The position numbers were made by a program, and so were the translations under genes. The notes beneath the pieces are model-generated. The model did no database searches. It worked only from the letters and a program-made list of their open reading frames with translations, and was not told the origin of the DNA. Shown piece by piece: positions 8,549 to 28,859 of a stretch of DNA of 64,000 nucleotides; positions within the stretch are counted from its first letter, which is position 1, and each line of letters begins with the position of its first letter. The DNA comes from Natronospira proteinivora (GTDB taxonomy: Bacteria > Pseudomonadota > Gammaproteobacteria > Natronospirales > Natronospiraceae), in NCBI RefSeq assembly GCF_024170465.1, contig NZ_JALJYF010000002.1, forward strand, positions 1-64,000, in the 5' to 3' direction.

Positions 8549-10168
8549 TCACCCCCGCCGGAACCCCGAGGTGATGGGGTAACGGCGGTCCCGCCCAAAG
8601 GCCCGACGACTGAGTCGCGGGCCGGGGGCGCCCTGACGGCGCTTGTATTCATTCAGCTGCACCATACGCAGTACTCGCTGGCAAAGCGCCTCATCGAATC
8701 CCTCGGCCACCAGGCTATTCAGCCCCCGGTCGGCCTCCACAAAGGCCTCGATAATGGCATCCAGCACGGCATACTCGGGCAGGCTGTCGGTATCGTATTG
8801 GTCAGGGCGAAGTTCCGCGGAAGGGGGGCGATCAATCACCGCCTGGGGAATAACCCGCCCCTGTCGATTCCGCCAGTCTGCCAGGGCATAGACCCGACTC
8901 TTGCTGAGATCCCGAATGGGGGCGAAGGCCCCTACCATGTCACCGTAGAGGGTGGCATAGCCCATTGCCAACTCACTCTTGTTTCCAGTGGCCAGCACCA
9001 TCTCGCCCCGCTGATTGGACAGGGCCATCAGCTTCACACCCCGAATCCGACTCTGCAGATTCTCGGCCGCCACACCGGATACCGGCTCGGCCAGCCCCCT
9101 GGACAGACTCTCTTCAAGCGCCGCGACGGAATCGCCAATATCCAGGTTCAGGTACTCAACATCCAGCAACGCCGCCTGCTCCCGGGCCAGTTCATAACTG
9201 ATATCTCGGGTATAGGCAGAGCCCATCATCACCGCCGTGACCCGGTCCGCACCAATGGCGTCCACAGCAATGGCCAGGGTAATCGCTGAATCAATCCCGC
9301 CGGACAACCCGATCAGGGCACCCGGAGCGCCATTCTTGTTGAGATAATCGCGGGTCGCAAGCACCGCGCCTTGATACTGGCTGGCTTCCGCCGACAAGGG
9401 TGTATGGACCGGCCCATCGAACAGACGGCCCTGGGCATATTGCACGGGATAGAAGCCGGCTTGCCATTCAGGAGCCTGGAGCGCCACCGCCCCGTCCGGG
9501 TTAACACCGACACTGGCCCCATCGAAGACCAGTTCGTCCTGCCCCCCCAGCAGATTGCAGACAAGCACCGGAACACCGCCTTCCCGAGCCCGCTGAGCGA
9601 ATTCTGCCTGGCGCTCCTCGGCCTTATTCAAGGCATAGGGAGAAGCGCTCAGACTCAGGATCAGCTCCGCCCCGGCCTGGCCCGTGTCTTCGGCCGGGCC
9701 GGCCACCCAGAGGTCTTCGCAGATGGTGAGCCCCAGCTTGACGCCCTTGAAGTCCACCACACAGGCCTGATCGCCGGCAGTGAACCAGCGCTTTTCATCA
9801 AAGACGCTGTAATTGGGCAGACAGCGCTTGTGATAGCGAGCCAGCTCCCGGCCCTCTGAGAGCAATACTGCTGCATTGCGCAATCCTTCATGGGAATAAT
9901 CGGGGGTGCCATACAACACCCCCACATCCCCCGGCAGTTTCGCTCGCAATGTCGCCTCGGCCGCCTGCACCTGCTGGGAAAAATCTTCATGCAACAGGAG
10001 ATCCTCCGGTGGATAGCCGGTGAGACAGAACTCGGGGAAAATCACCAGATCCGCCCCATGTTCCTGCCGAGCGGTGGATACCGCTTCCAGCATCCGGTCC
10101 AGATTACCCTGGATGTCCCCCACCACGGGATTGATCTGCACGGTCACAATCACAAGCTGTGCTGACAT
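8549..10168 (-). CDS. nadE: Glutamine-dependent NAD+ synthetase
   Basis: 539 residues with two domains. The N-terminal nitrilase-like glutaminase (1 to about 250) has the Glu-Lys-Cys triad in PEFCLTGYPPEDL, KRCLPNYSVFDEKRW and TICEDLW. The C-terminal NAD synthetase has the P-loop GLSGGIDSAITLAIA near residue 286. The enzyme makes NAD+ from deamido-NAD+, ATP and glutamine in the cytoplasm. It is separated from sucD by a terminator-like hairpin and so seems to be transcribed separately. Confidence 0.96.
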   Translation of the reverse strand: MSAQLVIVTVQINPVVGDIQGNLDRMLEAVSTARQEHGADLVIFPEFCLTGYPPEDLLLHEDFSQQVQAAEATLRAKLPGDVGVLYGTPDYSHEGLRNAAVLLSEGRELARYHKRCLPNYSVFDEKRWFTAGDQACVVDFKGVKLGLTICEDLWVAGPAEDTGQAGAELILSLSASPYALNKAEERQAEFAQRAREGGVPVLVCNLLGGQDELVFDGASVGVNPDGAVALQAPEWQAGFYPVQYAQGRLFDGPVHTPLSAEASQYQGAVLATRDYLNKNGAPGALIGLSGGIDSAITLAIAVDAIGADRVTAVMMGSAYTRDISYELAREQAALLDVEYLNLDIGDSVAALEESLSRGLAEPVSGVAAENLQSRIRGVKLMALSNQRGEMVLATGNKSELAMGYATLYGDMVGAFAPIRDLSKSRVYALADWRNRQGRVIPQAVIDRPPSAELRPDQYDTDSLPEYAVLDAIIEAFVEADRGLNSLVAEGFDEALCQRVLRMVQLNEYKRRQGAPGPRLSRRAFGRDRRYPITSGFRRG

Positions 10169-23004: not shown

Positions 23005-23765
23005 TGGGATCGGAACTGACTTTCCTGGCCGCCTTTATCGCCGGCCTGGCCGGCAGCCTGCATTGTTTGGGGATGTGCGGCGGTATTGCCGCCTCCCTGG
23101 GCATGGCGGGTAGCGTGGGCACCAACGCGCGGCGTGGCTGGCTCAATGCCCTGCTCTATAACGTGGGGCGTATTACCAGCTATGCCGTGATTGGCGCGGC
23201 GGCGGCTGGGCTGGTGATGGCCTTGGGTATTGCGGTGGGTCGACCGGATTGGGGCGGACTGCTGCGCCTGGTCACCGCCTTCATCCTGATCGCCATTGGC
23301 GTTCAACTGGCCTTCAACTGGGCGGGTCTGCGGCGCATCGAGGCCCTGGGCGGGCGGGTCTGGCAGCATCTGGCCCCCCTGGCCCGGCGTTTCATGCCCC
23401 CAAAAACACCCCTGCATGCTCTGGCCCTGGGCGGACTCTGGGGCTGGCTGCCCTGCGGTCTGGTCTACACCATGGTGCTGGCCGCCTCGGTCTCCGGAAA
23501 CCCCATAAACGGCGCTGCCATCATGATCGCGTTCGGCCTGGGCACCCTGCCGGCCATGACCGGCACCAGCCTAATGGGCCAGCAAGCCCAGCGTCTACGA
23601 CAGCACCCCGCCTTCCGCCAGCTCGCCGGCGCCCTGCTCATTTTCTTTGGCCTCTGGACTGCCTTCTTCCCCCTCTCCTCCCTCATGCCAGGCCACGGAG
23701 ACCATTCCCACTCACATGTCCAGGAGGTAGGCCAGCATCAAGGGCATCACGATAGTGGCATCTGA
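23004..23765 (+). CDS. TauE/SafE-like membrane protein of the cbb3 locus
   Basis: 253 residues, about six or seven membrane helices, with the family start FIAGLAGSLHCLGMCGGIA (Cys near 35 and 39) and a second half containing GWLPCGLVYTMVL. Members of this subgroup are regularly last in ccoGHIS loci and are assigned to sulfite exporter TauE/SafE, although a role in copper handling is more likely here. The C-terminus is His-rich (HGDHSHSHVQEVGQHQGHH), suggesting metal binding. This tail overlaps the 3' end of the convergent deoxyhypusine-synthase-like gene by 54 bp. Confidence 0.88.
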   Translation: MGSELTFLAAFIAGLAGSLHCLGMCGGIAASLGMAGSVGTNARRGWLNALLYNVGRITSYAVIGAAAAGLVMALGIAVGRPDWGGLLRLVTAFILIAIGVQLAFNWAGLRRIEALGGRVWQHLAPLARRFMPPKTPLHALALGGLWGWLPCGLVYTMVLAASVSGNPINGAAIMIAFGLGTLPAMTGTSLMGQQAQRLRQHPAFRQLAGALLIFFGLWTAFFPLSSLMPGHGDHSHSHVQEVGQHQGHHDSGI

Positions 23766-24680
23766 ATGAATGTTGAATCGGGGGGTCTCGGGGCCCAGCT
23801 TGCTCCAGGTGATTTTTTCGTTTTCCGGAGCGCCGGAATAACCTCCATAGCTCGAGTCAGCATCACTGATCTGGCAGAAATACCCCCAGCGCGGGGTGTC
23901 GGGCATCTGTAGTTCCCGGCTGATCAACGGTGTCACGCAGATAGCAAAATCACCGGCAATACCACCGCCCACTTGTAGATAGGCTATGCCCGGTTCGGGA
24001 TCACAGTTCTCAAGGTACCAGCGCACCAATCGATTCATCTGTTCAGTACCTGCCATGACACAGGAATGGCTGGATACCTCACCACGCATGACGGCAGCAC
24101 TGAAGGCATTGCCACTGCTTGAATCCTCCCAGCCTGGGGTCCAGACCGGCACCTGACGCTCGGTGGCCGCCAATAACCAGCTGGATTCCGGATCCTGGAA
24201 CTGCTTGCGCAATCCCGGGTCTCGCAGCAGGTCCTGCATGAATTCAGACGGCATGGCACTGCGCCCACTGTCGGCGGCCGCTCGCCACCGGGTGATCAAC
24301 TGTTCCTCCACCTGCTGCATCACTTCATCCGGAATGGCCGTGTCGGTCACCCGGTTGAGCTGACGATCATTCAATGCCTGCTCATCAGCCGGTGTCAGAT
24401 CTCGCCAATTGGGCAATGATACATAGCGGTTACCCCCCATCAGGCGAAACACATCCTCTTCCAGATTCGCACCAGTACAGCAGATTCCGTGGACCATCCC
24501 TTGCCGGATGGCTGGCGCCAGACTCTTGCCGAGTTGAGCGGTACTCATGGCACCTGCCAAGGAGATGAACAGACGCCCGCCTGAATCAAGATGGGCAAGC
24601 AATGCCTGAGAGGCCGCTTTGAGTTCACGGGCATTGAAATGGTGATAATGACTGTCGATGAATTCCCGTATTCCCCCCAT
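23712..24680 (-). CDS. Deoxyhypusine-synthase-like protein
   Basis: 322 residues. Alignment by eye with eukaryotic deoxyhypusine synthase is clear: CTGANLEEDVF near residue 69 matches TTAGGVEEDLI, QVGGGIAGDF near 236 matches the GGG NAD-binding loop, and EKITWSKL matches EAVSWGKI, putting the catalytic lysine at Lys294; SDATIVMPLMLA closes the fold. The family transfers a 4-aminobutyl group from a polyamine through an NAD-dependent imine. The HHIANAN segment holding the eukaryotic active-site His after GGG is replaced by GDFAICV, so the substrate probably differs. Bacteria have no eIF5A needing deoxyhypusine. It is last in a five-gene operon, three bases after the Gly-tail gene. Confidence 0.87.
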   Translation of the reverse strand: MGGIREFIDSHYHHFNARELKAASQALLAHLDSGGRLFISLAGAMSTAQLGKSLAPAIRQGMVHGICCTGANLEEDVFRLMGGNRYVSLPNWRDLTPADEQALNDRQLNRVTDTAIPDEVMQQVEEQLITRWRAAADSGRSAMPSEFMQDLLRDPGLRKQFQDPESSWLLAATERQVPVWTPGWEDSSSGNAFSAAVMRGEVSSHSCVMAGTEQMNRLVRWYLENCDPEPGIAYLQVGGGIAGDFAICVTPLISRELQMPDTPRWGYFCQISDADSSYGGYSGAPENEKITWSKLGPETPRFNIHSDATIVMPLMLAYLLDM

Positions 24681-24683
24681 CCA

Positions 24684-25673
24684 TCAGCCTCCCGCGCCGG
24701 AACCGACCAGACCACCACCGCCACTGTCTTCCGGTATTGGAATTTCCTTGCCAAAGCCCCCCATGTCCGACTTGGGAAACTTTTTCCCGACCAGCCGCAC
24801 CGGTGCCGGCACTTGCAAAGGCAAGGGGTTGGCCCAGGAATCGGGTTCACTCAGATGGACCCGGCGCAACAGCAAACCGGCCGACCCCACCTCTCGCAAG
24901 ATGCCCACCAGATCATCCGAAGGTCGTTGCGCACCATCTTTGGCGACATAAATGAGACCACGGATACCTTGGTTTTTCAGCCGCTCCAGACTAGGGAGGA
25001 TGGACTGGTCGATAAAATAACGATTATCAAAGCTCCCAGGGCCCGGTTTAGGGGCTGTCAGACGACGGCTATCACAAAGCCACACCGGGGGCGCATCCGC
25101 CGCCACCCCCAGGCGATGGCGTTGATAAATCTTGGGTGCCAAGGTCACCATGGCATCGATTATGTCTTGGGAGTCCACCGCCACAGTGCTATTCACTTTT
25201 GGTGGCCAGGAAGATTCAACAACGCCATCCAGGTCGGATCGCTCAGGATGTTTCATGGGGTTGGCTCTGGGCCAATGGTCATAGCTGGCAATGAGCTGAC
25301 ACTCCCGTTCCAGAAACAGAGCGGCCCCCAGTTGCAAGGATTCCGCCCCCGGCAGGTCAATCAGGGTCATGGTTCCCGGTCGCAACCAGTCCCAGGCCCC
25401 TTCAGGTCGAGATTGGTTTACAGCCGGGCTGTTCTCAAGCGGTCGGGGCAAGAGCTTGAGACGGTCAATCCCGGCAAAAAGGGTCGGGCAATGATAGGGG
25501 TGCCAAACACTTTCCGGCGGCGGCCCATACAGTCGAAAAAGACTGTAATAGTCCCGAAAGTCATACCAGGCATCCCCGGAGGCCCCTGTTTTCTCAAAGG
25601 GATCGGCCAGAGTGGGGCGAGCACGCAGTGGTGTGCCCAGGCGTTCAAGTAGTTTCAACCAGCGTTGCGACAT
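24684..25673 (-). CDS. Orphan protein with a Gly-rich, Gly-Gly-ending tail
   Basis: 329 residues from the ATG at 25673 (MSQRWLKLLERLG); an upstream ATG at 25739 would overlap the ligase gene by 95 bp. I recognise no family. The N-terminal 70 residues are rich in aromatic residues (WYDFRDYYSLFRLYG). Two alpha/beta-like stretches follow, with strands such as TMTLIDLPGAESL and RGLIYVAKDG. The last 30 residues look disordered, with GGFGKEIPIPEDSGGGG, and the protein ends in Gly-Ala-Gly-Gly. There is no signal peptide or membrane helix. It overlaps the ATP-grasp gene by 29 bp and is three bases from the DHS-like gene, so it is made with both. A substrate or scaffold role is an inference. Confidence 0.7.
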   Translation of the reverse strand: MSQRWLKLLERLGTPLRARPTLADPFEKTGASGDAWYDFRDYYSLFRLYGPPPESVWHPYHCPTLFAGIDRLKLLPRPLENSPAVNQSRPEGAWDWLRPGTMTLIDLPGAESLQLGAALFLERECQLIASYDHWPRANPMKHPERSDLDGVVESSWPPKVNSTVAVDSQDIIDAMVTLAPKIYQRHRLGVAADAPPVWLCDSRRLTAPKPGPGSFDNRYFIDQSILPSLERLKNQGIRGLIYVAKDGAQRPSDDLVGILREVGSAGLLLRRVHLSEPDSWANPLPLQVPAPVRLVGKKFPKSDMGGFGKEIPIPEDSGGGGLVGSGAGG

Positions 25674-26856
25674 GACAGGCTTCATAGTTGATAATGGGAT
25701 GGACATGAACGCGGCTGCTATAACCAGCAAACCGACCATTCACCAGAAACATTCCAAGACTGGCATAGCGCGCACCCGAGGAAAACCACAAGGGAGCGGG
25801 CTCGAAAGCTGCCTGAAGGGCATAGGCTGCGGGCTTGGTCAGTGCCTGGTTAATAGCCAGGCGCCAGTCGTTTGGTGACAGCAAGGCGCCAATACGAACC
25901 GCATTCCCCATGCGACCGAAACTTCCTTTGAGCACCCAGGAGGATTGATCGCGCAGATAATCATCCTGATGTGCCGGTTCAGGTAACACACTATCGGGGA
26001 ACCACGTGGAGAGGCAATCACGTGCACGTTCCGACAACCCCAGGGATTCCACCTCTGCCAAGGCATAAAAGCGCTTACTCTGAGAAGCCAAGGCGGATAG
26101 AGGGCTCATAAGCGGATGCTGACAAGCCAAGCGTTCCCAATCGGCTGCATTGGGCAGTTCACTGATCCATTCTCCCGGGTAATAGCGAAATAGCACATCA
26201 ACCGCCTGATCGAACAGCCAGGCTTGACCATCGGCATCCACCTGCAAATTGGCTGGTGATCCAACCACTGCTTCTCGGCCGGACTGTCGCAGCCAATCAG
26301 CAATCAGTGAGACCTGTTGCAAGTCCCCCGACCAGGCACTAGCGTGAACCAGACCAATACGCTGCCAGGGGGAAAGGGCCTTGATCAGGGACTGGCGAAG
26401 ATCCCCCGGGCACGACAAACCAGACATCCAGGGCAGGACATATTCAGACATCAGCGCCTGGTATCCGGCACACTCCCCCATCTCTCCCGGGCAATCCTCG
26501 TTGAACTCGGTGATATACCAACGTTCATCACTGCTGTAATGGAAATCACAGCGGCTGACCCTGGGCTGATCGACGGGCTGCTGTTGAATAGCAGGCCAAA
26601 GAGCCGATGGCACACCCACTGCCTCCAGGTAGCGCTCATCTGCGCAGACTCGCGATTCCAGTTCTCTCAGTGCCGACCAGGCCGATTCGGCGGCCTCGAC
26701 CAGGAATTCGTGTTCTTCCCGACTCAATATAATGGCATCTGGAAGTAGTGTCGGCTCACCATCATGATAGATGTCCCACTTGTAATGCTCGGCTCGAAAG
26801 CGTTGTAACAGTCGAGTAGCATCGGCAGGTTCCAGCGGCCAGGGTTCGGTTCTCAT
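25645..26856 (-). CDS. Glutathionylspermidine-synthase-like ATP-grasp ligase
   Basis: 403 residues from the ATG at 26856, which overlaps the upstream stop as ATGA. Features of the GspS C-terminal ATP-grasp domain are visible: SRCDFHYS (R102, D104), ITEFNEDCPGEMGE (E117, N119, D121), VDVLFRYYPGEW near 219 (the family LYPWEW signature) and SSWVLKGSFGRMGNAV with Lys310 in the nucleotide-binding loop. The N-terminal CHAP amidase of E. coli Gss is absent. GspS joins the glycine carboxylate of glutathione to an amine of spermidine using ATP. Here both acceptor and amine are unknown. E. coli YjfC is a comparable stand-alone paralogue. Confidence 0.85.
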   Translation of the reverse strand: MRTEPWPLEPADATRLLQRFRAEHYKWDIYHDGEPTLLPDAIILSREEHEFLVEAAESAWSALRELESRVCADERYLEAVGVPSALWPAIQQQPVDQPRVSRCDFHYSSDERWYITEFNEDCPGEMGECAGYQALMSEYVLPWMSGLSCPGDLRQSLIKALSPWQRIGLVHASAWSGDLQQVSLIADWLRQSGREAVVGSPANLQVDADGQAWLFDQAVDVLFRYYPGEWISELPNAADWERLACQHPLMSPLSALASQSKRFYALAEVESLGLSERARDCLSTWFPDSVLPEPAHQDDYLRDQSSWVLKGSFGRMGNAVRIGALLSPNDWRLAINQALTKPAAYALQAAFEPAPLWFSSGARYASLGMFLVNGRFAGYSSRVHVHPIINYEACHVATLVETT

Positions 26857-27812
26857 AATCGCAGCCCAAGCCAAGTGGACAGCCAAGGCATCAAGAGCAC
26901 GCTCCCCAAGGCGACCACAATATAGACCCACCATTCACCATCCCGGGACACTTCATCGGGGGTACGCGGACGCATGAGTTCATGTGCCAGCACCGGCAGA
27001 GCAATCAGGGAAAATCCGAAAAGGCTGTCGCCAAAACCATGATAATCCCCATGAACCGCATAGGTGATAATCACTGCGTTGGACAGACAGAATCCAGCTG
27101 CGGCCTTGGCATCATTGATTCTGTGGTCGCGGACAATGCGATCAGCGAAGTTGGCCTTTTCCCGGCGAATCCACAACCACTGAGTCAGGGCCAGGATGGT
27201 CCAGCCCATGAGGAAGAACCAGGGGGTAATCCACCAGCCATCTTCATACCCCGGTAGCACCTCGAAGATACTGCCGTACTCCAGGGATTCCGCCGTCATG
27301 GATCCCCACATGGCCCCACCAAAAATCATCCCCGTGGCTAGAGTGAAGGCCGCAATAAAAATGGCGGCGGCCAGGTTCTTGCGCTCGTAGACATCAATAC
27401 GCAGGCGGGGACCGAAAAATTCGGCCCATAACTGGCCAAAGAATTTGATGGCGGCAAAAGCCATCAGGGCATAAAGCACCGTCCAGATGCCGGTAATGGT
27501 GGGGTCTGCGTGCAGAGAGAGTACGTAAGCGCACCAAAGAACGCTGGCGATGACCCCCAAGCGAGCAAGACCAATAGCAGAATTTTTGTGCCAATAGAGG
27601 TGATGCAAGCGTCCGACCCGGCTCCATGACAGGCCGTAGAAACTGGTCACCAACGCCACACCAAAAACAAACCCCGTGTCCTGCCAAAAAACATCCGCTT
27701 CATAAAAAAACAATGCGGTAAAAAAACCCACCACAGCCGAAGCGAAAATAATCCGAGCGGCCCGCAGACCAGCAGAATTGGTAGTGATCAAGGTTCCCCC
27801 AAAGACTCCCAT
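26853..27812 (-). CDS. Polytopic membrane protein resembling DUF350 repeats
   Basis: 319 residues with about eight hydrophobic helices. Four segments start with Asn followed by small residues and a helix: N12-SAGLRAARIIFA, N77-SAIGLARLGVIA, N146-LAAAIFIAAFTL and N233-DAKAAAGFCLSN. This resembles the NxAxA helix starts of DUF350 proteins such as E. coli YjfL, which is encoded near the GspS paralogue YjfC. The match is by eye only. There is no catalytic motif. Transport of, or a membrane platform for, the ligated product is possible. It lies 15 bp after the agmatine deiminase gene and overlaps the ligase gene (ATGA). Confidence 0.75.
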   Translation of the reverse strand: MGVFGGTLITTNSAGLRAARIIFASAVVGFFTALFFYEADVFWQDTGFVFGVALVTSFYGLSWSRVGRLHHLYWHKNSAIGLARLGVIASVLWCAYVLSLHADPTITGIWTVLYALMAFAAIKFFGQLWAEFFGPRLRIDVYERKNLAAAIFIAAFTLATGMIFGGAMWGSMTAESLEYGSIFEVLPGYEDGWWITPWFFLMGWTILALTQWLWIRREKANFADRIVRDHRINDAKAAAGFCLSNAVIITYAVHGDYHGFGDSLFGFSLIALPVLAHELMRPRTPDEVSRDGEWWVYIVVALGSVLLMPWLSTWLGLRL

Positions 27813-27827
27813 CGCAATGCTTTCCCG

Positions 27828-28859
27828 CTACCATAGCAGAGGCTGAGCAAGGCAGTGAATGGCCCCGCCCTGGGCCAACACGGCACGAGCATCCAACCCG
27901 ACCACTTGCCGATCCGGGAACAAGTCCTGCATTACGCCGATGGCCTGCTGATCACTCGCCTGGCCAAATGCGGGCAGCAATACCCGATCAGCGGCAAGAT
28001 AAAAATTGGCATAGCTGGCTGGTTGGTGACGCCCCTGGATCCGTACCGGCTCGGGTACCGGCAAAGCAATCACCTCCAGGCCAGCCGCCGACAGGCGTCG
28101 ATGGGCTTCAGCCAAAGTATCCGCATCCGGGTGACCAGACGGCACGTCCGGGCCCGGGCACACCACCTGCCCGGGCGCCACGAAACGAGCCAGATTGTCC
28201 ACATGACCATCCGTGTCATCCCCTGTGAGCCCCGAGCCCAGCCAGTGAATGTGGCGGGCTCCGAAGTAGTGCCCCAGGCCGGCCTCCAGTTCAGACCGCC
28301 CCGGATTCTCTCGATTAGGATCAAGCAGTACCGATTCGGTGGTCAGCAAATGCCCGCAGCCATCACAATCCACCGCCCCACCCTCTACGCGGAACGGCAG
28401 AGGCAACCGCCGTCGATGCCAGCGCCTAGCCAGCATCAGAGGGATCAGGCTGTCCAGGCCGTGGGGATACTTCTCGCCCCAGGCATTGAAGTGGCCATCC
28501 AGCAGCACGGCTTCGGGGGCATCACCGCTTGTCCGCCAAGCCCCGATGGGCCCGGCATCCCGCATCCAGATGTCATTGGTCGGCAACGGCAATAATGTCA
28601 GGCTTTCCCTGTCCTCTCCTCCCAGGAGGCGAGCAATAGTCGACTGTTCATCCGGTGATACCAAAATGGTCACCGGCTCCACCTCCCGCAGTAAACGCTG
28701 CAGGTGAACAAAAGTATCCTGCACCGCCGGATACAGCCCGGACCAGGCCTGATCCACCTGCGGCCAAGCCAACAAGGTCCCCGCTCGCGGTTCCCATTCC
28801 GCCGGCACCCGGTACTCGAATTCCCCCTCAACCTCCGGCATCCGCGTCCCTCTGCCCAT
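27828..28859 (-). CDS. aguA: Agmatine deiminase (peptidyl-arginine deiminase family)
   Basis: About 343 residues from the ATG at 28859, which has GGGAGG ten bases upstream; ATG 28841 (MPEVEGEF) is an alternative. Family motifs: TNDIWMRDAGPIG near residue 100, RVEGGAVDCDG near 163, GDDTDGHVDN near 222 and the catalytic Cys in AQGGAIHCLAQ near the C-terminus. The enzyme hydrolyses agmatine to N-carbamoylputrescine and ammonia. No N-carbamoylputrescine amidase (aguB) is found in the window. It is the first gene of the polyamine-related operon, with a TATAAT -10 at 28915-28920. Confidence 0.92.
   Translation of the reverse strand: MGRGTRMPEVEGEFEYRVPAEWEPRAGTLLAWPQVDQAWSGLYPAVQDTFVHLQRLLREVEPVTILVSPDEQSTIARLLGGEDRESLTLLPLPTNDIWMRDAGPIGAWRTSGDAPEAVLLDGHFNAWGEKYPHGLDSLIPLMLARRWHRRRLPLPFRVEGGAVDCDGCGHLLTTESVLLDPNRENPGRSELEAGLGHYFGARHIHWLGSGLTGDDTDGHVDNLARFVAPGQVVCPGPDVPSGHPDADTLAEAHRRLSAAGLEVIALPVPEPVRIQGRHQPASYANFYLAADRVLLPAFGQASDQQAIGVMQDLFPDRQVVGLDARAVLAQGGAIHCLAQPLLW

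Follow-up and report, generated by a model that had tools for sequence, protein, structure and literature searches.

A candidate C-terminal protein-polyamination operon in Natronospira proteinivora with a four-gene core shared with Myxococcota

Introduction

GspS amidates the glycine of glutathione with an amine of a polyamine. To our knowledge, the natural substrate of the related E. coli ligases YgiC and YjfC has not been established, and we know of no accepted chemistry for the envelope operons that combine polyamine, DUF350 and PspA genes. The E. coli yjfIJKLMC and ygiBC operons both encode a ligase of the GspS fold and a partner protein ending in RGG[FY]G...GG, and the yjf operon also encodes a DUF350 protein (YjfL). 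A peptide-spermidine ligase activity of YgiC/YjfC is reported by the title of Pederick 2023, as cited in PMC12568646. DUF350 and GspS-like ATP-grasp genes also occur together with polyamine-metabolism genes in the PspA/CesT-Tir operons (PMC11237479).

Other described systems resemble single aspects of the locus analyzed here. The hss-gss clusters of Achromobacter phage Motura and betaproteobacteria join homospermidine synthesis to a GspS homologue, with glutathionylhomospermidine as the proposed product, and Pelagibacter and Fonsibacter carry ADC/DHS-SpeY/NCPAH/AIH clusters, homospermidine operons in which AguA and a DHS-like SpeY occur together (PMC9992855). Thermus CdmS couples two agmatines, after which a ureohydrolase acts (PMC10981699). 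In SUMO/ubiquitin-spermidine conjugation, the polyamine is placed on the C-terminal Gly-Gly carboxylate of a protein, by eukaryotic E1/E2 chemistry with no ATP-grasp ligase, and C-terminal Gly-Gly-spermidine amides of SUMO exist chemically (PMC12270671).

Results

Gene arrangement and comparison with described systems

The window, the whole stretch of 64,000 nt that was analyzed (Natronospira proteinivora contig NZ_JALJYF010000002.1), contains five minus-strand open reading frames, all present in an ORF check. Neighbors are separated by 15 bp (AguA/DUF350) or 3 bp (orphan/DHS) or overlap, by an ATGA (DUF350/ligase) or by 29 bp (ligase/orphan), which bears out the original prediction of five tightly packed genes with gaps of at most 15 bp or overlaps. 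The features are:

27828-28859, minus strand: AguA (agmatine deiminase-type enzyme, PF04371; Pfam PAD_porph 3e-89)
26853-27812, minus strand: DUF350 (YjfL-like) multi-TM membrane protein, long form, 319 aa (Pfam DUF350 5e-6)
25645-26856, minus strand: GspS/YjfC-type ATP-grasp acid-amine ligase, 403 aa (Pfam GSP_synth, PF03738, 3e-18)
24684-25673, minus strand: ligase partner protein, called "orphan", 329 aa (no Pfam match)
24687-24764, minus strand: conserved C-terminal tail of the orphan, MGGFGKEIPIPEDSGGGGLVGSGAGG, proposed polyamine acceptor
23712-24680, minus strand: DHS-like aminobutyltransferase (PF01916; Pfam DS 7e-41)

Unlike the E. coli operons, this operon has a dedicated DHS-like enzyme and AguA and lacks PspA, DUF2170, DUF2491 and DUF1190 among its five genes; its ligase is ~20% identical, and the body of the partner has no detectable similarity to DUF1190. 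The PspA/CesT-Tir operons differ in carrying AdoMet decarboxylase, SpeE-like or polyamine oxidase genes, and neither DHS nor a Gly-tailed protein is reported for them in the available part of PMC11237479. The earlier observation that a GspS paralogue near a DUF350 protein is known from E. coli yjfC/yjfL was correct, but this operon type had already been described with polyamine genes beyond that example (PMC11237479). In the hss-gss clusters, the HSS enzyme is unrelated to DHS (PMC9992855).

A four-gene module is conserved across phyla

Relatives of the module were reached by a search with the ligase, among the matches listed, followed by a two-sequence profile. The DUF350-GspS-orphan-DHS neighborhood is kept in at least four Myxococcota genomes (L054, L142, L143 and L144), and the cluster is more than a chance assembly, an explanation that was dropped in view of the conservation across phyla. 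In a fifth locus (L145) the orphan and DHS genes are present and the contig ends inside the orphan gene. The 29-bp ligase/orphan overlap recurs in L054, L142 and L144, and is also kept in L184, where DHS is missing. The DHS proteins of the window and of the Myxococcota modules form a single clade (support 97/98). DUF350, ligase, orphan and DHS are a conserved module, from a gammaproteobacterium to Myxococcota.

The expectation that all five genes would be neighbors in related genomes held for these four in Myxococcota and failed for AguA, which was not found in the related module loci. We therefore rejected the idea of the five genes as one fixed pathway; by its distribution, AguA is a replaceable auxiliary part outside the conserved core.

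The orphan had seemed to lack relatives. Exact-peptide scans with it alone found none in viral or genome contigs, class and order searches returned only the window's own genome, and tblastn against plasmids found no orphan and, for the ligase, only two remote cyanobacterial relatives. With the two-sequence profile, 35 of 379 Myxococcota genomes were found to encode the family, in most cases next to a GspS-like ligase, so on profile evidence the protein is a family member and no true orphan. Among distant members, a ligase is adjacent at 18 of 23 loci, and the C-terminal residue is G in 17 and S in 3 of 22. The glycine tail noticed earlier is conserved in the family as a GGFG...Gly tail, with ends such as GSGAGG, GSGGGGG, SSGGGGG and SSGGVGG.

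Active sites of the enzymes are retained

The ligase matches PF03738 with 66.8 bits (cut-off 29.3) over residues 25-397, the synthetase domain. Its residues R102, D104, E117, N119, K261, K310 and R382 are invariant and correspond to GspS R316, D318, E330, N332, K498, K533 and R598 (numbering from a 2io7/3o98 alignment), which we take to have catalytic roles. AguA has an intact catalytic GGAIHC motif (GAIHC, with the catalytic Cys), and the catalytic Lys K294 of the DHS-like protein is invariant. Because all three enzymes retain their active-site residues, the objection that an inactive ligase or DHS-like family would have raised against a joint pathway does not arise.

The DUF350 protein matches its Pfam model in two stretches (27.0 bits, cut-off 26), has ~5-9 hydrophobic segments depending on the threshold, and is 48% identical to its L054 homologue. 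AlphaFold models from two-row alignments reached a pLDDT of 30 for the ligase and 38 for the orphan, too low for the models to be of use; the orphan has a low-confidence alpha/beta core.

Upstream genes point to a homospermidine-type polyamine

The DHS-like protein (PF01916, 7e-41) scored 120 bits against the homospermidine model NF001980 (cut-off 450) and 87 bits against the bis(guanidino)-aza-nonane synthase model (cut-off 500). It represents a divergent subfamily, and its product assignment stays putative because it exceeded no NCBIfam equivalog cut-off. AguA is the second copy in the host genome; its substrate assignment is likewise putative, with 201.9 bits against the TIGR03380 equivalog (cut-off 381.8). 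The host also encodes SpeA, AguA2 and AguB, a putrescine route, with SpeA and AguB located outside the operon, unlike in the ADC/AguA/AguB/SpeY operons.

Gammaproteobacterial DHS relatives of ~50% identity occur with SpeA, AguA and AguB or agmatinase; in these operons, unlike in the window, the ligase, DUF350 and tail protein were not found. The original prediction knew of no described pathway that adds agmatine deiminase and a DHS-like enzyme; the linkage of these two, however, is already published for the Pelagibacter and Fonsibacter clusters (PMC9992855) and recurs in several gammaproteobacteria. In L143, L144 and L145, the upstream genes are pyruvoyl arginine decarboxylase (PvlArgDC) and agmatinase in the place of AguA, so that the upstream half would supply a homospermidine-type polyamine, and the differing upstream genes appear to converge on one product line. 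We consider the DHS-like protein a putative SpeY-type homospermidine synthase or agmatine-coupling enzyme, with gene context supporting homospermidine formation from putrescine.

Agmatine coupling of the caldomycin synthase type, as by Thermus CdmS (PMC10981699), with AguA trimming the guanidino ends to give a guanidino- or carbamoyl-polyamine donor, would fit AguA in the window operon and the agmatinase that adjoins DHS in those three Myxococcota loci whose flanks are long enough. We regard it as improbable, given the slightly higher score on the homospermidine model, both being below cut-off, and a host already equipped for putrescine. Still more improbable is a hypusination-like transfer of the aminobutyl group onto a lysine in either the orphan or the DUF350 protein, extended by the ligase: the DS fold and catalytic lysine are compatible with it, but the ~50%-identity relatives adjoin genes for putrescine synthesis and lack any neighboring protein that might be the substrate, and bacterial DHS-like SpeY yields homospermidine (PMC9992855). 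Direct modification of the orphan by DHS was considered and dropped for want of support.

GGFG tails are common on partners of GspS-like ligases

We defined a partner group by a gene adjoining a GspS-like ligase, GG[FY]G within the last 40 aa and a terminal Gly or Ser; the window orphan shows all of these features. Such tails occurred at 53 of 90 GspS-like ligase loci, compared with 45 of 4568 background ORFs (~1%), and in 13 of 18 ligase clusters. The bodies of the partners fall into separate clusters without detectable similarity, and the RGGFG...G/S tail is common to them. DUF1190/YgiB/YjfM of E. coli are included: YgiB, adjoining YgiC, ends in TRGGFG...SRSMGG and YjfM, adjoining YjfC, in SRGGYG...GHWGG. 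The orphan has no Pfam match up to E=1, including DUF1190 (PF06693), and has the tail alone in common with that family. Many tails end in Ser instead of Gly, and many DUF1190-type partners resemble exported lipoproteins. About one fifth to two fifths of the ligase loci have no adjacent tail protein, for instance PspA-type loci in Sphingomonas.

The ligase might instead make a soluble small-molecule conjugate, for example glutathionylhomospermidine, with the orphan as scaffold, regulator or hydrolase and the unmodified tail docking the ligase. GspS is the archetype, the ligase belongs to PF03738, and this very product was proposed for hss-gss (PMC9992855). The window ligase matches the synthetase region only, in 403 aa, and lacks the N-terminal CHAP amidase domain of bifunctional GspS. 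Moreover, the motif stays at the very C-terminus in partners whose bodies seem unrelated, so direct chemistry on the C-terminus is the better explanation and a small conjugate seems rather unlikely. We hold it unlikely, too, that the tail acts in interaction or at the membrane, within a ligase-partner complex held together non-covalently during envelope stress, with DHS and AguA just supplying free homospermidine. DUF350/GspS-like/PspA/DUF1190 operons are tied to membrane stress and polyamines (PMC11237479), but such a reading leaves unexplained both a ligase with retained catalytic residues beside the tail protein and the terminal Gly/Ser bias.

Discussion

The common GGFG...Gly tail on otherwise dissimilar neighbors leads to a specific hypothesis, that the partner's own C-terminus is the ligase substrate. 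We propose, as an evenly balanced proposition, that the operon encodes a module for polyaminating a protein at its C-terminus, in which the ligase amidates the C-terminal Gly of its partner with a polyamine. Gene linkage, the conserved tail and intact active sites are established by sequence comparison; the identity of the polyamine, the tail as acceptor and the role of the membrane are what we infer from them. AguA, together with SpeA and AguB of the host, would convert arginine-derived agmatine to putrescine, from which the DHS-like enzyme would build homospermidine or a closely related compound by linking C4 units. The ATP-grasp ligase would turn the C-terminal Gly carboxylate of the orphan into an acyl phosphate and then join one of the polyamine's primary amines to it as an amide, the GGFG...Gly tail serving recognition and acceptance. 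The DUF350 protein may anchor or receive the polycationic-tailed protein at the membrane. The comparisons agree well with the earlier idea of an operon that produces a polyamine-type amine and couples it to a protein, and the Gly tail noticed then is conserved, except that AguA is not part of the core.

Several points speak against polyamination. Gly/Ser-rich tails can serve interaction instead of acceptance, many end in Ser, some ligase loci have no adjacent tail protein, and partners of the DUF1190 type, resembling exported lipoproteins, would have to encounter the cytosolic ligase before they are exported.

More broadly, and at slightly less than an even chance, GspS/YjfC-type ligases may form a widespread bacterial protein-polyamination system, in which the C-terminal Gly or Ser of GGFG-tailed partners, including YgiB and YjfM, is amidated with spermidine or, here, homospermidine. 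The substrate of YgiC/YjfC thereby becomes testable, in E. coli by mass spectrometry. If true, bacteria would modify proteins with polyamines in addition to EF-P/eIF5A-type changes, and the window operon would be a variant that has its own source of homospermidine; if the widespread reading holds, such polyamination would form a class of bacterial post-translational modification that has not been described before.

Gene arrangement of the operon

All five genes of the original prediction were located on the minus strand of the window, with the tight spacing it described.

27828-28859, minus: AguA, agmatine deiminase (Pfam PAD_porph)
26853-27812, minus: DUF350 protein (Pfam DUF350, score just above the cut-off)
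25645-26856, minus: GspS-like ligase (Pfam GSP_synth)
24684-25673, minus: orphan (no Pfam match)
23712-24680, minus: DHS-like enzyme (Pfam DS)

AguA is separated from the DUF350 gene by 15 bp and the orphan from the DHS-like gene by 3 bp; the DUF350 and ligase genes overlap in ATGA, the ligase and orphan genes by 29 bp. Because AguA and the DHS-like protein scored far under the cut-offs of the NCBIfam equivalog models, their family names do not fix exact substrates. A defective active site in the ligase or the DHS-like protein had been named as evidence against a joint pathway, but in alignments both are intact. Unlike bifunctional GspS, the ligase has no amidase half; it retains the residues aligned with GspS R316, D318, E330, N332, K498, K533 and R598, invariant in 8 diverse ligases. 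The DHS-like protein retains the catalytic lysine K294 in its TW.KL motif (invariant in 8 relatives), and AguA the GAIHC cysteine motif. The G+C content is 54-58% in the other four genes versus 63% in AguA, compatible with a transferred four-gene module to which AguA was added locally.

Conservation in other genomes

Neither the orphan nor the ligase was found in 18 other genomes of the window's order. A same-genus genome has both flanks (FixI-CcoS-TauE and ETF-QO-ETFbeta-ETFalpha), with a 393-aa gene of HD-GYP-like appearance (by eye) at the operon position, which points to lineage-specific gain or loss. Among the matches listed in a ligase-profile scan there was one close relative (46% identity), in the Myxococcales MAG locus L054, where DUF350, ligase, orphan and DHS genes occur together; the two orphans are 40% identical. 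A two-sequence orphan profile retrieved further Myxococcota modules. L142, L143 and L144 carry DUF350-ligase-orphan with the DHS gene convergent to them, and L145 carries orphan and DHS on a contig that ends at the orphan. L184 has DUF350-ligase-orphan without DHS; a divergent flavin amine (polyamine) oxidase gene lies alongside (L184:12057-13505). The 29-bp overlap recurs in L054, L142, L144 and L184. Many comparison loci are MAG contigs, and gene calls at GC-rich loci are mechanical ORFs.

The predicted co-occurrence was thereby borne out for four families in L054, L142, L143 and L144 but not for AguA: in L143-L145 a pyruvoyl arginine decarboxylase and agmatinase precede the DHS gene, while the L054 and L142 contigs end too close to judge this. 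The six DHS proteins encoded by the modules group in a single clade (97/98), with the SpeA-linked DHS of gammaproteobacteria falling outside it.

Polyamine supply

Among 369 gammaproteobacterial genomes, relatives in the DHS clade (47-54% identity) share operons with SpeA and N-carbamoylputrescine amidohydrolase, and four of these operons also include AguA; one operon has SpeA and agmatinase instead. The same arginine-to-homospermidine layout is published for Pelagibacter and Fonsibacter, whose homospermidine synthase is the DHS-like protein SpeY (PMC9992855). The AguA-DHS pair is therefore not novel. Since a DHS-like enzyme of Thermus couples agmatine instead (PMC10981699), homospermidine is a putative product of the window enzyme.

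The host genome encodes SpeA and SpeE, and a second AguA (34% identical) adjoins AguB; the operon AguA is thus an extra, dedicated copy. The host SpeE and SpeA ORFs point away from each other, and their predicted starts overlap (G000:C2 around 761300, L041). Elsewhere in the window, a 539-aa ORF (8549-10168, minus) matches carbon-nitrogen hydrolases (E 3e-11 to AguB) and is possibly an apolipoprotein N-acyltransferase.

A glycine-rich tail on ligase partners

Orphan-family C-termini read DMGGFGK..P.P....GSGAGG or SEGSYGSGGGGG, SSGGGGG and SSGGVGG. The orphan profile matched in 35 of 379 Myxococcota genomes. At distant loci a GspS-like ligase adjoins in 18/23, and the 22 readable C-termini (forms including GGFGGAIPIPSAG, GGFGSLVPEPSSSGG and GGFGGIVPVPSEGGSGYS) are Gly-terminal in 17 and Ser-terminal in 3. 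The orphan, whose tail is conserved, is a partner protein of the ligase. Some distant relatives (L172, L174, L146-L148) have a twin-Arg N-terminus (LTRR), followed in L146-L148 by a Cys, as in Tat-exported lipoproteins; the window orphan has no signal.

We searched same-strand ORFs adjoining GspS-like ligases for GG[FLWYM]G within the last 40 residues. Among the matches listed in the genome scan, 53 of 90 loci from several phyla carried it, versus 45 of 4568 background ORFs (odds ratio 63; p = 6e-59, indicative only because loci are related). These 53 tails end in GG in 34 cases and in S in 16; looser criteria gave a tailed partner in 13/18 ligase clusters. Once stripped of their last 45 residues, the partners fall into several clusters that show no detectable resemblance to one another (DUF1190-like, sphingomonad, Bacteroidota, Verrucomicrobiota, Nostoc and the orphan family); some small ones may be divergent DUF1190. 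In E. coli K-12, YgiB, adjoining YgiC, ends in TRGGFG...SRSMGG, and YjfM, between YjfL (a DUF350 protein) and YjfC, ends in SRGGYGRSSSARGHWGG.

Two IMG/VR contigs catalogued as viral, L048 (112 kb) and L052 (425 kb), encode a ligase with an adjoining GGFG-tailed protein; the pair may travel on large phages. In L062, L087 and L110, the product of some PspA-type genes located beside or close to a GspS-like ligase has the C-terminus ...GGDVLARLKAKRGG or RGA, a small-residue end unlike the GGFG tail; here PspA itself may be the partner.

Proposed mechanism

Operons of GspS-like, DUF350 and polyamine genes are already described (PMC11237479), as are AguA-SpeY operons and hss-gss clusters. The literature searched, mostly outside subscription journals, contained no description of a SpeY-type DHS paired with the DUF350/ligase module, nor of a GGFG...Gly tail that ligase partners have in common, and given this scope we claim no priority for either.

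GspS couples spermidine to glutathione through the tripeptide's glycine, whose carboxylate it activates. Pederick 2023 (cited in PMC12568646) reports peptide-spermidine ligase activity for YgiC and YjfC in its title. C-terminal Gly-Gly-spermidine amides exist on SUMO (PMC12270671), which makes a polyamine-amide product chemically reasonable. The sequences show gene linkage, a conserved tail and intact active sites; the reaction, the amine and the part played by the membrane protein are inferred. In the simplest reading, GspS-like ligases would attach a polyamine, through an amide bond, to the C-terminal Gly or Ser of the tailed protein encoded next to them, and the window operon would be a form that brings its own supply of a homospermidine-type amine, the DUF350 membrane protein possibly serving as anchor or target.
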